Assembly: GCA_001783595.1 (NCBI GenBank)
Contig: MFMW01000005.1
Span: 18,377 to 57,402, forward strand
Length of the DNA: 39,026 nt
Reading direction: 5' to 3'
Source: Candidatus Kuenenbacteria bacterium RIFCSPHIGHO2_02_FULL_39_13
GTDB taxonomy: Bacteria; Patescibacteriota; Patescibacteriia; UBA2196; GWA2-42-15
Position numbers and translations under genes: made by a program. The notes beneath the pieces are model-generated. The model had not been told where the DNA came from, did not search any database, and saw nothing but the letters and a program-made list of their open reading frames with translations. How positions within the stretch are numbered: position 1 is the stretch's first letter; the number at the start of each line of letters is the position of its first letter. This document shows positions 2,180-35,342 of the stretch, piece after piece.

Positions 2180-3052
2180 TTATTTTTGTTCAATTTTTTT
2201 CTCCAATCCCTTCCTATCTTCAATTACTTCTTCTAACAATTTACGATCAATACTTATTTTTTCAGTTTTGTCGCCTATGTCGTAAGTTATCTCTATTGTT
2301 TGACTTTTGCCATTGTTTATTATTTCAGTATGAAAACCTTGCGTTTCTTTATAGCCATTTCCTCCCACTGTATTGACATATTTATCCCTTGCCTCTGGCC
2401 CTTTGGTTTTTTCAAGTAGTTTAGCAATAAAACTTTCAGCTGCTCCGTTGTGTGTGGCCAAGTATCTCTCAAGCTGGTTGCCAAATTTTTCATATTTATC
2501 GGTTTGGCTGGCGAGTTTATTGAAATTATCACCCATTAATGAATATTTGTTATAAAGTTCAGCTAAATTGCCAGCATATCTTAAATAACTTGATTCTTTA
2601 GAATCCTTGTTCCTTAATACTGATTTATCGCTTTCCTCTATTAAAAATTTCAACAATCGTCCTTCATTATAAGCTGCTAGCGACTCTGCTGTTGAGTGAA
2701 AATCTAACCTTTCATCAGTATGTATTTTTGTGCCCATTTTTAATTCTTCAGCTATTTTAGTTTCCATCTGTTCTAAACTATCATCGGCCGAAATTTTTTC
2801 CTCATTAGCCAACATCATATGTCCAGCAGTTTCCAGCGTTCTTTTTTGTAAGCTGCCGGTAGCAATAGCCACTTCCGATTGGGGATTAAATTCTTTCCCC
2901 TTATTCGTTGCTTGCTGTCTGCCAAATGGAGTTAACAATCTGTCGCGATTATCCTTTTCTGGGTCATTTTCTTTTTGCCCGTGGCGCCGGCACTCAATAA
3001 TAACTTTGGTAACTTTTGTTTCAAGCTCTTTTGGTGACATTTTTTCTGGCAT
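2180..3052 (-). CDS. histidine phosphatase superfamily (phosphoglycerate-mutase-like) protein
   Basis: RRHGQKE motif near the N-terminus followed by LTPFGRQQATNKG. Confidence 0.75.
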   Translation of the reverse strand: MPEKMSPKELETKVTKVIIECRRHGQKENDPEKDNRDRLLTPFGRQQATNKGKEFNPQSEVAIATGSLQKRTLETAGHMMLANEEKISADDSLEQMETKIAEELKMGTKIHTDERLDFHSTAESLAAYNEGRLLKFLIEESDKSVLRNKDSKESSYLRYAGNLAELYNKYSLMGDNFNKLASQTDKYEKFGNQLERYLATHNGAAESFIAKLLEKTKGPEARDKYVNTVGGNGYKETQGFHTEIINNGKSQTIEITYDIGDKTEKISIDRKLLEEVIEDRKGLEKKIEQK

Positions 3053-3165
3053 AGTTTTTGCTATTAATTAATAATTCCTCTATATACTTTTATCTTATCC
3101 CTTTTATCTAAAAAAATCAAAAAAATACCTCCCAAGGTATTTTTAGCCTATCAATCCTAATCATT

Positions 3166-32332: not shown

Positions 32333-33925
32333 ATGGCTGCTTTTCCCAACGCTATTGCCAACTGGCTGGACAACTATTGCGCAGTCATTGCCAGCCAAAA
32401 AGAAAAAACCCCAGGTGCCACTGTTGAAGTGAGTGATGCCGCTGGCAAGCTGGCTTTTATTTATGAAAAAATCAGAAATACCGTTGACTATAAAGACGAC
32501 CATCTCTTACGGAAGCATGCCATTGCCCGCATGCTCAAGCGCTTAGCCGTCCCGGGCGCCAAAGGCTCAACCATTGCCTTGCCATTGGTTGAAGAATTAA
32601 TTCGGGCAAGATACCTGCCCAACAAAGCCGTCTTTGATATGTCTGTGGAGCAGATTCGTCATGCCATCAATAAATATATTGTGATTTACAATTCAGCAAT
32701 TGATAAAAATTATAACTCCCGAGAATTAAGAAAATTTTATGATTGGCTGATTCATCTGGCCGCCTGTGAAATAGAAGAAATCTTAGTTCCCGCCAGAGAA
32801 ACTTTAATTACCGTTGATGCCATGCATCGGGTCGTCAGACAAAATGTTATTTTAGACGGCAATTCAGGGCTTGATCCAATTGATCAAAATATTCAAATAT
32901 ATATCGCCGTTCTAAAATCCCTGATTAAAGCCGACGAGATGACAATCAACTATTTTCTTTTTAAATACTATTTTCCAGATTGGCAGAAGTTAACGCTGGC
33001 TCAAGTTGAAAAGCTGGTCGGGCAAATTTGGCAGATTAAATATCTAATTCAAGCCCACGCCGTTTATCATTTAAATGAAAAATTAACCCACGAATTTAAA
33101 AAATATGCCGTTGTTTTCTGGATACTGCAAGATATTATCAGCCAAAACCCCGGCCAGTTTCAGAATATTTTTGCTTCAAGAGAACTCCTGACTGAAGAAA
33201 TTAAAAAAGTCTGCCATAAAAAATATAAAAGCATTGGCAAAAAAGTCCGCACAGCCATTGTCCGTTCAGTTATCTATATCTTCCTGACAAAAATGATTTT
33301 TGGTCTTTTACTTGAATTTCCATACGATTATTTCTTTCTAGAAAAAGTCCAATGGCTGCCGCTCTCAATCAATGCTCTTTTCCCGCCAGTGCTTATGGCC
33401 GCCATCGGTATGAGCATCAGGACGCCCAAAGAAGACAACACCCAAGCCATCATCGCTGAAGTTGACAACATTGTTTATTGCAGTCAGGGCAAAGAACATC
33501 GTGTCAAAATCAGACAGCCAAAACATGGTTTTGGTTTCTACTTATCGCAAACCATTTATGCCATTCTCTATCTTATTTCTTTCGGTTTGGTTATTTACGG
33601 TCTTGCCCAGCTGCTTTTCAGTTTTGCGAGTATGATAATTTTTATCTTTTTTCTGACCATGGTCAGCTTCTTTTCCCTGCGCATCAGAAAAACCGCTGCC
33701 GAGCTGATTATTCTGGAACAGCGGGAAAGATTTTTAACTGTTATTTTTACTTTTCTGGCCATTCCTGTTTTGCGCGTCGGCCGCTGGATTTCAGTTCATT
33801 CGTCAAAAATCAACGTCTTTATTTTTATGCTTGATTTTTTTATTGAAACCCCGTTTAAAATTTTTATCCGCATTTTTGAAGACCTAGTGGTCTTTGTTAA
33901 AGAAAAAAGAGATGAGATGCTCTAA
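32333..33925 (+). CDS. hypothetical membrane protein
   Basis: 530 aa ORF with several C-terminal TM segments. Confidence 0.75.
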   Translation: MAAFPNAIANWLDNYCAVIASQKEKTPGATVEVSDAAGKLAFIYEKIRNTVDYKDDHLLRKHAIARMLKRLAVPGAKGSTIALPLVEELIRARYLPNKAVFDMSVEQIRHAINKYIVIYNSAIDKNYNSRELRKFYDWLIHLAACEIEEILVPARETLITVDAMHRVVRQNVILDGNSGLDPIDQNIQIYIAVLKSLIKADEMTINYFLFKYYFPDWQKLTLAQVEKLVGQIWQIKYLIQAHAVYHLNEKLTHEFKKYAVVFWILQDIISQNPGQFQNIFASRELLTEEIKKVCHKKYKSIGKKVRTAIVRSVIYIFLTKMIFGLLLEFPYDYFFLEKVQWLPLSINALFPPVLMAAIGMSIRTPKEDNTQAIIAEVDNIVYCSQGKEHRVKIRQPKHGFGFYLSQTIYAILYLISFGLVIYGLAQLLFSFASMIIFIFFLTMVSFFSLRIRKTAAELIILEQRERFLTVIFTFLAIPVLRVGRWISVHSSKINVFIFMLDFFIETPFKIFIRIFEDLVVFVKEKRDEML

Positions 33926-35168
33926 AAAAACAATCCAATACATTTTAAAATCATTGGCCAAGGCAATCTTAAAAAAATATCAGCCTGATGTTATCGGCAT
34001 CACCGGTTCTGTGGGCAAAACCTCAACCAAGATGGCCATTCAAACCGTTTTAAAAAATGATTTTAAAGTCCGCGCTAGCCAAAAAAGCTATAATACCGAA
34101 ACTGGCGTGCCATTGACTGTTATTGGCGCGGATAATCCGGGCCACGATATTTTTGGCTGGCTGGCCGTGTTTTTAAAAGCTATATTTTTGATTTTTGCTC
34201 GCGATAAAAATTATCCGCAAATTTTTATTCTGGAAATGGCCGCTGACCATCCGGGTGATATTGAATATCTGACTGATATTGCCAGGCCAAAGATCGGCCT
34301 CATCACTTCAGTCGGCCCGACCCATCTTGAATTTTTTGGCTCTGTGGCCAACGTAGCCAGAGAAAAAAGCACCATGATTACCAGTCTTCATACTACTGAT
34401 TATGCCGTGATTAATAACGACCAAAAGACATTAGCGGAGCTAGCCAAAAAAACTAAGGCTCAACTTTTAACTTATGGCTTGAAGCAGGCTGATTTAACTG
34501 CCAGTGATATTAAATTTAATCAGGATAGCGCTGGCCTTTATTTTAAGATAAATTATAAATATGATAGCGCTAGCGTAAATTTGCCTAATATGTTGGGCCG
34601 GCCAGTCGTCTATGCGTTTTTGGCCGCCAGCGCGGTTGGCATTATCTATCATCTTGACCTGAAAAAAATTGCCCAGCGGCTGGAACATTTTGAAAATCCA
34701 CCGGGCCGCTTGAATTTATTGCCCGGCATTAAATGCACCCGTATTATAGACGACTCATATAACTCTTCCCCTCTGGCAGCCAAAGCTGCTTTGGAAACAT
34801 TGAGCCAATTAAAATGCGCTGGCAATAAATTCGCAGTTCTGGGCGATATGCTTGAACTTGGCGATTATACAAAAAAAGCCCACCAAGAAATAGGGGAGTT
34901 GGTTGCCAAGCTGGCAATAGATTATCTAATTACCGTGGGCGAACGTTCTCACCATACGGCTGAATCAGCCAAAGAATTCGGCATGAATCCGGATAGAATT
35001 TTTAGTTTTGACAATCCGGAAAACGCCGGCTGTTTCCTCCAAGAGCGCATTGCAGAAGGCGATTTAATCCTGATTAAAGGCTCTGCCGCTATGTCTATGG
35101 AGCGCATCACCAAAGAAATAATGGCCGAGCCAAAAAGAGCAGGTGAACTGTTAGTTAGACAAAAATAA
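33912..35168 (+). CDS. murF: MurF-like Mur ligase
   Basis: DVIGITGSVGKTSTKMAIQTVL, NTETGVPLTVIG, SYNSSPLAAKAALETL, FAVLGDMLELGDYTKKAH. Confidence 0.93.
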   Translation: MRCSKKTIQYILKSLAKAILKKYQPDVIGITGSVGKTSTKMAIQTVLKNDFKVRASQKSYNTETGVPLTVIGADNPGHDIFGWLAVFLKAIFLIFARDKNYPQIFILEMAADHPGDIEYLTDIARPKIGLITSVGPTHLEFFGSVANVAREKSTMITSLHTTDYAVINNDQKTLAELAKKTKAQLLTYGLKQADLTASDIKFNQDSAGLYFKINYKYDSASVNLPNMLGRPVVYAFLAASAVGIIYHLDLKKIAQRLEHFENPPGRLNLLPGIKCTRIIDDSYNSSPLAAKAALETLSQLKCAGNKFAVLGDMLELGDYTKKAHQEIGELVAKLAIDYLITVGERSHHTAESAKEFGMNPDRIFSFDNPENAGCFLQERIAEGDLILIKGSAAMSMERITKEIMAEPKRAGELLVRQK

Positions 35169-35220
35169 AAGTTTGATTTTGGTAGCCCGTAGGGGAATCA
35201 AACCCCTTTTATCAGGATGA

Positions 35221-35317
35221 CCCCTCACCTTTTACCGCCACGGGGAATTGAACCCCGGTTACCAGGATGAGAACCTGGCGTCCTAACCATTAGACGATAG
35301 CGGCAAAAGGTGAGGGG
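35221..35317. repeat. 13-bp perfect inverted repeat flanking the inner tRNA
   Basis: CCCCTCACCTTTT (35221-35233) / AAAAGGTGAGGGG (35305-35317). Confidence 0.95.
35233..35304 (-). tRNA. tRNA-Glu (anticodon CUC)
   Basis: GCCGCTA TC GTCTAATGGTTAGGAC G CCAGGTTCTCATCCTGG TTAC CGGGGTTCAATTCCCCG TGGCGGT A cloverleaf; no encoded CCA. Confidence 0.92.
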
Positions 35318-35342
35318 CTAATCATTAGACGAACGGGCCGAA

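Follow-up and report, generated by a model that had tools for sequence, protein, structure and literature searches.

Transfer RNA genes are commonly seen as places where mobile elements dock without damaging the gene. Double-hairpin elements and ORF-linked replacements of gene ends occur in the mitochondria of Allomyces, and these resemble the locus described here in that hairpins lie in the loops of RNA genes and in that a gene is broken while a substitute part is brought in; they are, however, mitochondrial, and we know of no case among them in which a cognate tRNA encloses a complete tRNA. The split, permuted and intron-containing tRNAs of archaea and algae likewise involve a tRNA gene interrupted in its loops and complementary arms, but the halves observed here cannot rebuild a full tRNA and match no intron family.

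Closer parallels are found in bacteria and phages. The rRNA genes of CPR bacteria harbor insertion sequences, among them GIY-YIG-encoding ones that resemble no intron (Tsurumaki et al. 2024, PMC11270868). These inserts occur in the same clade as the elements described below and share with them the presence of GIY-YIG ORFs in non-intron inserts, the many short copies without an ORF and the location of sites at the tops or bases of rRNA stem-loops, but that study deals with rRNA, and the words 'tRNA' and 'palindrom' are absent from its text. Terminal inverted repeats (TIRs), target duplications and tRNA cargo are additions made here to that picture. The phage GIY-YIG enzyme SegB is reported to cut within tRNA genes and to promote their spread or amplification (PMC13096335; Brok-Volchanskaya et al. 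2008). SegB is also a GIY-YIG nuclease tied to tRNA genes but, in that account, it is free-standing and acts via homologous recombination in phage genomes, with neither TIRs nor tRNA-in-tRNA nesting described (PMC13096335). In the literature searched, whose coverage excludes most subscription papers, no report was found of tRNA cassettes nested in cognate tRNAs or of TIR-bounded GIY-YIG elements.

The window (the whole 39,026-nt stretch of DNA analysed) derives from a 717-kb metagenome-assembled genome (MAG) of 34 contigs. By direct reading of the sequence, a tRNA-Glu on the minus strand (35339-35180) is split, with a 97-nt insert between its halves made up, in order, of a 13-nt arm, an intact 71-nt tRNA-Glu(CUC) and a further 13-nt arm (Table 1). 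Where the insert now stands, between the D loop and the anticodon loop, the outer gene has lost 12 nt. A previous sequence-only reading of this locus had described the outer halves, the arms, the inner tRNA and the 97-nt spacing exactly as they are found.

Table 1. Features of the nested tRNA-Glu locus and its flanking genes, in window coordinates.
Feature	Coordinates	Strand	Evidence and remarks
Outer (resident) tRNA-Glu(CUC), 5' half	35318..35339	-	GGCCCGTTCGTCTAATGATTAG, 22 nt; acceptor 5' strand and D arm to TTAG
Left arm / terminal inverted repeat	35305..35317	-	CCCCTCACCTTTT; perfect inverted repeat of right arm
Inner intact tRNA-Glu(CUC)	35234..35304	-	71 nt, without encoded CCA; ARAGORN; Rfam RF00005, 62.7 bits
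Right arm / terminal inverted repeat	35221..35233	-	AAAAGGTGAGGGG; sequence reading and fold
Outer tRNA-Glu(CUC), 3' half	35180..35220	-	TCATCCTGATAAAAGGGGTTTGATTCCCCTACGGGCTACCA, 41 nt; anticodon position 35 (TCAT...), T arm, acceptor, encoded CCA
Upstream neighbour, 411 aa	35343..36578	-	No Pfam family; anchors the locus in relatives
Mur ligase gene, convergent downstream neighbour	33894..35168	+	Pfam Mur_ligase_M and Mur_ligase_C

The inner tRNA-Glu(CUC) is the only gene called at the locus by ARAGORN and Rfam, and no intron family was detected in the window by Rfam, the tRNA being the sole match, nor any catalytic group I or II intron RNA. In the predicted fold of the 160-mer (-80.6 kcal/mol), the 7-bp outer acceptor stem and the outer T arm both form, the arms and the inner acceptor stem make one continuous helix and the inner cloverleaf is full, while the outer anticodon arm is absent; the fold thereby reproduces the acceptor pairing and the extension of the inverted repeat that had been proposed from the letters. 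Anticodon base 34 and two stem strands, the 3' one of the D stem and the 5' one of the anticodon stem, fall within the segment missing from the outer gene, and the exact 12-nt stretch lost is present in the inner gene. Joined in cis, the outer halves give no complete tRNA, since the 12 nt are absent and no proper anticodon arm results, in agreement with the earlier argument that the missing anticodon strand speaks against simple splicing. The 97-nt insert contains no nuclease ORF, which is present only in relatives of the element. The features of a tRNA-targeting integrase element, namely an integrase and a restored tRNA 3' end, are also lacking at the window locus, where 97 nt leave no room for an ORF and the breakpoints lie in the D and anticodon loops. 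No target-site duplication flanks the window copy, 12 nt having been lost instead.

An empty site is found in the closest relative compared, a member of the same genus (G001). Here the ortholog of the 411-aa neighbour (91% identical) is followed directly by an ordinary intact tRNA-Glu(CUC), and the upstream 300 bp are 92.7% identical to those of the window. The site reads GGCCCGTTCGTCTAATGATTAG-GACGCCAGGTTC-TCATCCTGG..., where the first 22 nt are the same as the outer 5' half of the window, the outer 3' half is identical at 39/41 positions and GACGCCAGGTTC represents exactly the 12 nt replaced in the window, giving a precise value to the 'about 11-12 nt' estimated previously. As the intact G001 gene is a CUC gene, the outer gene of the window was likewise a tRNA-Glu(CUC), so that inner and outer genes are of one isoacceptor; this corrects the earlier reading, in which the outer gene was a second, tRNA-Glu-like gene. 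An intact tRNA-Glu(UUC), for which a search of the remaining genome had been recommended, is located on another contig. Two ordinary tandem tRNA genes, the arrangement in relatives that would have pointed to an assembly chimera, were looked for, and the closest relative has a single ordinary tRNA. The inner tRNA-Glu(CUC) shares 79% identity with the resident gene of G001 and 94-96% with the tRNA-Glu(CUC) genes of other lineages, suggesting that it probably came from outside, and it is the only tRNA-Glu(CUC) found in the assembly (88% complete).

Short elements that have the arm sequence, YCCCKCACCTTTT, as their TIR form a dispersed family with many members in Patescibacteria. An arm scan of named genomes recovered at least 119 stretches, many in Patescibacteria, a count which takes in chance matches outside this group and is not a frequency. 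Exact arms are present in 13/384 genomes of the class sample, against zero in 384 for a backwards control pattern, and 6/18 elements of this sample, as counted by reading the matches, carry a tRNA. Because the arms are perfect, the same arms surround other tRNAs and the control pattern was not found, the sequence evidence indicates that the nested arrangement is not chance. Among the matches listed, a tRNA lies between the arms in 14 cases elsewhere, in named and mostly patescibacterial MAGs, with Trp, Met, Thr, Ala, Val, Arg, Ser and Ile isotypes represented. Read case by case, most of these 14 are visibly inside tRNA halves of the same isotype, and the visible outer anticodons (Ser CGA, Trp CCA, Val CAC and Arg UCG) fit the inner ones. 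Breakpoints of the tRNA-bearing insertions, again among the matches listed, lie in D, anticodon or T loops, with a Thr(UGU) of Moranbacteria and a Thr(CGU) of G098 showing a D-loop to anticodon-loop gap like that of the window, and other outer tRNAs are decayed. BLAST comparison of the flanks mostly recovered the same amino acid; matches in the D and T arms are short and lack specificity, however, and the isotype matching therefore rests on the individually read cases. A class-wide pattern for an orphan 3' half matched the window only, this pattern being too strict for other isotypes and for hairpin-bearing loops.

Copies with and without a tRNA differ at their borders. An exact 4-bp direct duplication is found in 28/76 distinct tRNA-free copies among the matches listed (1000 shufflings: mean 4, maximum 10) and in 1/13 tRNA-bearing copies among the same matches, where the single instance is probably a coincidence. 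Several tRNA-bearing copies lose a loop-to-loop segment and, given these losses and the lack of 4-bp duplications, may enter by a reaction other than that which moves the tRNA-free copies. No free, non-nested tRNA cassette that could serve as donor was identified among the cassettes found. Many copies of ~100 bp with CCCTCACCTTTT ends were also observed in the Hydrogenedentota MAG J094 (L117, L123, L156, L163, L168, L180 and L181).

In the source genome, at least three further intact tRNAs each lie inside a tRNA of matching isotype. A tRNA-Ala(UGC) is nested in a tRNA-Ala with TCCCTCACCTTTT/AAAAGGTGAGGGA arms, while a tRNA-Arg(GCG) sits in the D loop of a tRNA-Arg(GCG) whose outer gene is complete and identical to that of the congener; when the 119-nt insert is removed, this outer gene matches the empty site of G001 over 22/22 and 80/80 nt at the junction. 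The third case, a tRNA-Arg(UCG) within a tRNA-Arg(UCG), is common to the source genome and G001; the inner tRNA is nearly identical between the two species, while in G001 the 3' half of the outer gene has eroded, a pattern expected, as far as sequence comparison can tell, of a working inner and a dying outer gene. In addition, a tRNA-Asn is flanked by TCCCGCACATTTT/AAAAGGTGCGGGA arms and a decayed 3' remnant, and a tRNA-Lys has arms without a clear outer gene. The arms of the nested Arg-GCG and Arg-UCG tRNAs, and of those in G273 and G006, are unrelated to the CCCKCACC arms, and the latter therefore do not account for all nested tRNAs. Remnants of tRNAs with double hairpins in the anticodon and T loops were also observed in the source genome (G000; L002, L026 and L010), where each adjoins an intact tRNA of its own type (Glu-UUC, Ser-CGA and Arg-UCG).

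The same TIRs bound elements of ~300 bp whose sole ORF encodes a GIY-YIG nuclease. The 16S rRNA gene of the source genome (L268, confirmed by Rfam) is broken at GGGAAGAA/TGACGGTACC by an insert of ~305 nt with TCCCTCACCTTTTAGC/GCTAAAAGGTGAGGGA ends and one ORF of ~85 aa, coding for a GIY-YIG nuclease. An element with similar ends, encoding a GIY-YIG protein of 69% amino acid identity, occupies the same 16S site in G167; such reuse of a site in distant genomes was observed for the ORF-bearing relatives only, at this one site. Homologues of the nuclease are present in 248/288 class genomes, and inverted repeats of at least 11 bp bracket 16/26 scored GIY-YIG loci, compared with 1.2% of random positions; additional TIR-bracketed loci were recovered under other search settings. 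The elements are hosted by 16S, 23S, RNase P RNA and tRNA genes and also by intergenic DNA, in a sample ranked by similarity to the 16S-borne query, so that the share of RNA genes is not an unbiased estimate. At L268 (G000:C34), the regions ~1463-1772 and 2767-3063 correspond to the TIR-bounded GIY-YIG element and to a group I intron match (51.8 bits), the latter at the 16S 3' end. GIY-YIG elements with 14-22 bp inverted repeats lie inside or at RNase P RNA genes in L293, L313 and L318, as identified by Rfam (L293) or by the conserved GGAAAGTCCGAACAC motif (L313 and L318).

A further arrangement involving tRNA-Glu was observed in 23/384 class genomes (L077-L102, L064 and L073). In these, a tRNA-Glu 5' half truncated at the D-loop TTAG precedes a GC-rich hairpin, single or double, and often a GIY-YIG ORF; a full tRNA-Glu comes next, and its 5' part duplicates the truncated copy. 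Units of 109 bp in L096 (G136) and of 105 bp in L098 (G091) are repeated in tandem; each unit lacks an ORF and consists of a tRNA-Glu 5' half interrupted by a hairpin, and the array ends in a full tRNA-Glu.

We consider it likely that a tRNA-carrying mobile cassette displaced the resident tRNA-Glu(CUC). This reading builds on the observed anatomy, empty site, shared TIRs, recurrence, isotype match and dispersal of tRNA-free copies with 4-bp duplications. The 97-nt insert would represent a small mobile cassette, composed of two 13-nt TIRs around a complete tRNA-Glu(CUC), which entered the resident gene and replaced the 12 nt. The inner gene would then be the working tRNA-Glu(CUC) of the cell and its sole functional copy, most likely driven by the resident promoter, with the outer gene a pseudogene. 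The cassette appears to be a non-autonomous member of the TIR family, the ORF-bearing members of which encode one small GIY-YIG nuclease and often lie in structured-RNA genes (16S, 23S, RNase P and tRNA), and this protein may mobilise it. A tRNA would at some stage have come to lie between the TIRs, and targeting, not survivor bias, may account for the loop positions. Entry may have been repair-like, as suggested by the missing 4-bp duplications and by the segments lost from loop to loop, perhaps following nuclease cleavage within the tRNA gene. Insertion would be tolerated and survive because the cargo replaces the gene which the cassette breaks, and would become irreversible once the outer gene is lost. 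More tentatively, and with somewhat less than even confidence, we propose that the GIY-YIG nuclease is the mobility enzyme of a ~300 bp TIR element preferring structured-RNA loops, and that its TIRs also move tRNA cassettes which break and functionally replace cognate genes, a dedicated tRNA-swapping mobile system across Patescibacteria. What occurs across the family is of greater interest than the window locus alone.

That a tRNA-carrying palindromic element destroyed a tRNA-Glu gene was one of three options raised by the sequence-only reading, and it gains strong support from the empty site, from arms shared also with GIY-YIG elements and from the repeated cases. The other two fare less well. 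A template switch or illegitimate recombination between two tRNA-Glu genes could itself have created the inverted repeat, with no mobile element involved, and both the missing 4-bp duplication at the window copy and the 12-nt stretch shared by the inner and the lost outer sequence would fit such an accident, as would the loss of those 12 nt by end processing at a break. We nevertheless regard it as unlikely, as the arm sequence also surrounds the tRNA-Ala and the 16S GIY-YIG element of this genome and, in distant genomes, other tRNA isotypes, for which a simple decayed recombination product does not account. Considerably less probable is a functional composite, in which processing of the nested transcript would yield a novel composite RNA or both of the tRNAs, its arms acting as an intron stem or as the complementary arms of a split tRNA. 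The respect of the insertions for RNA loops, the retained outer acceptor stem and CCA, the very stable predicted fold and the complete Arg-GCG outer gene, the same as that of the congener, are in keeping with this idea, but the outer gene of the window has lost both stem strands and position 34 and gives no proper anticodon arm on cis-joining, the Arg-UCG outer gene erodes in the congener while its inner tRNA is conserved, and other outer genes are decayed.

A further reading, that a REP-associated tyrosine transposase (Y1_Tnp, RAYT) moved a pair of REPIN-like palindromes with a tRNA enclosed by chance, is similarly improbable. The genome encodes one RAYT-like gene and elements of ~100 bp with inverted palindromic ends resemble REPINs, but the palindrome of that gene, TGGCTCCAGA..., differs and no CACCTTTT arm occurs in the surrounding 2.7-kb stretch. 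IS200-like transposition makes no target duplication, whereas the tRNA-free copies have 4-bp duplications. RAYT/REPIN was rejected as the motor of the CCCKCACCTTTT ends, the RAYT-like Y1_Tnp gene (L261, G000:C17) being bordered by a different palindrome. REPINs share with the present elements the paired inverted palindromes ~100 bp apart (PMC3116915), but differ in the palindrome used by the RAYT-like gene and in the target duplications of the TIR family. Least credible of all is a chimera of two tRNA loci arising from metagenome assembly: the window comes from one MAG and short repeats can misassemble, yet the same architecture recurs in many independently assembled MAGs, the Arg-UCG nesting is found in two species with partly covarying arms, and the upstream flank is conserved.

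With the displacement of the resident gene by a mobile cassette as the preferred reading, a close formal category is that of MITEs, which are similarly short, lack an ORF, have TIRs common to ORF-bearing copies and, in the tRNA-free copies here, 4-bp duplications. Dispersed copies sharing the TIRs are found in the tRNA-Ala cassette, the 16S insert and many elements elsewhere, and a close relative, G001, has the empty site. Unlike a MITE, however, the window cassette holds a full tRNA gene, lies in a cognate tRNA and is accompanied by a small deletion rather than a duplication, while the only ORF of its relatives encodes a GIY-YIG nuclease and not a DDE, HUH or serine/tyrosine transposase. By analogy, the cassette behaves as a MITE carrying a payload would, and resembles a homing element in supplying a replacement gene of its own. 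It does not strictly belong to either class, because it has no duplication (MITE) and no ORF in the window copy (homing element).

The elements described here would break a tRNA and supply its replacement, which would explain the spread and the irreversibility of foreign tRNA genes in bacteria with one gene per isoacceptor. Insertions tied to loops of structured RNAs (tRNA, rRNA and RNase P RNA), together with a tiny nuclease, constitute a testable mechanism, and the locus also serves as a warning that annotation pipelines overlook broken outer tRNAs.
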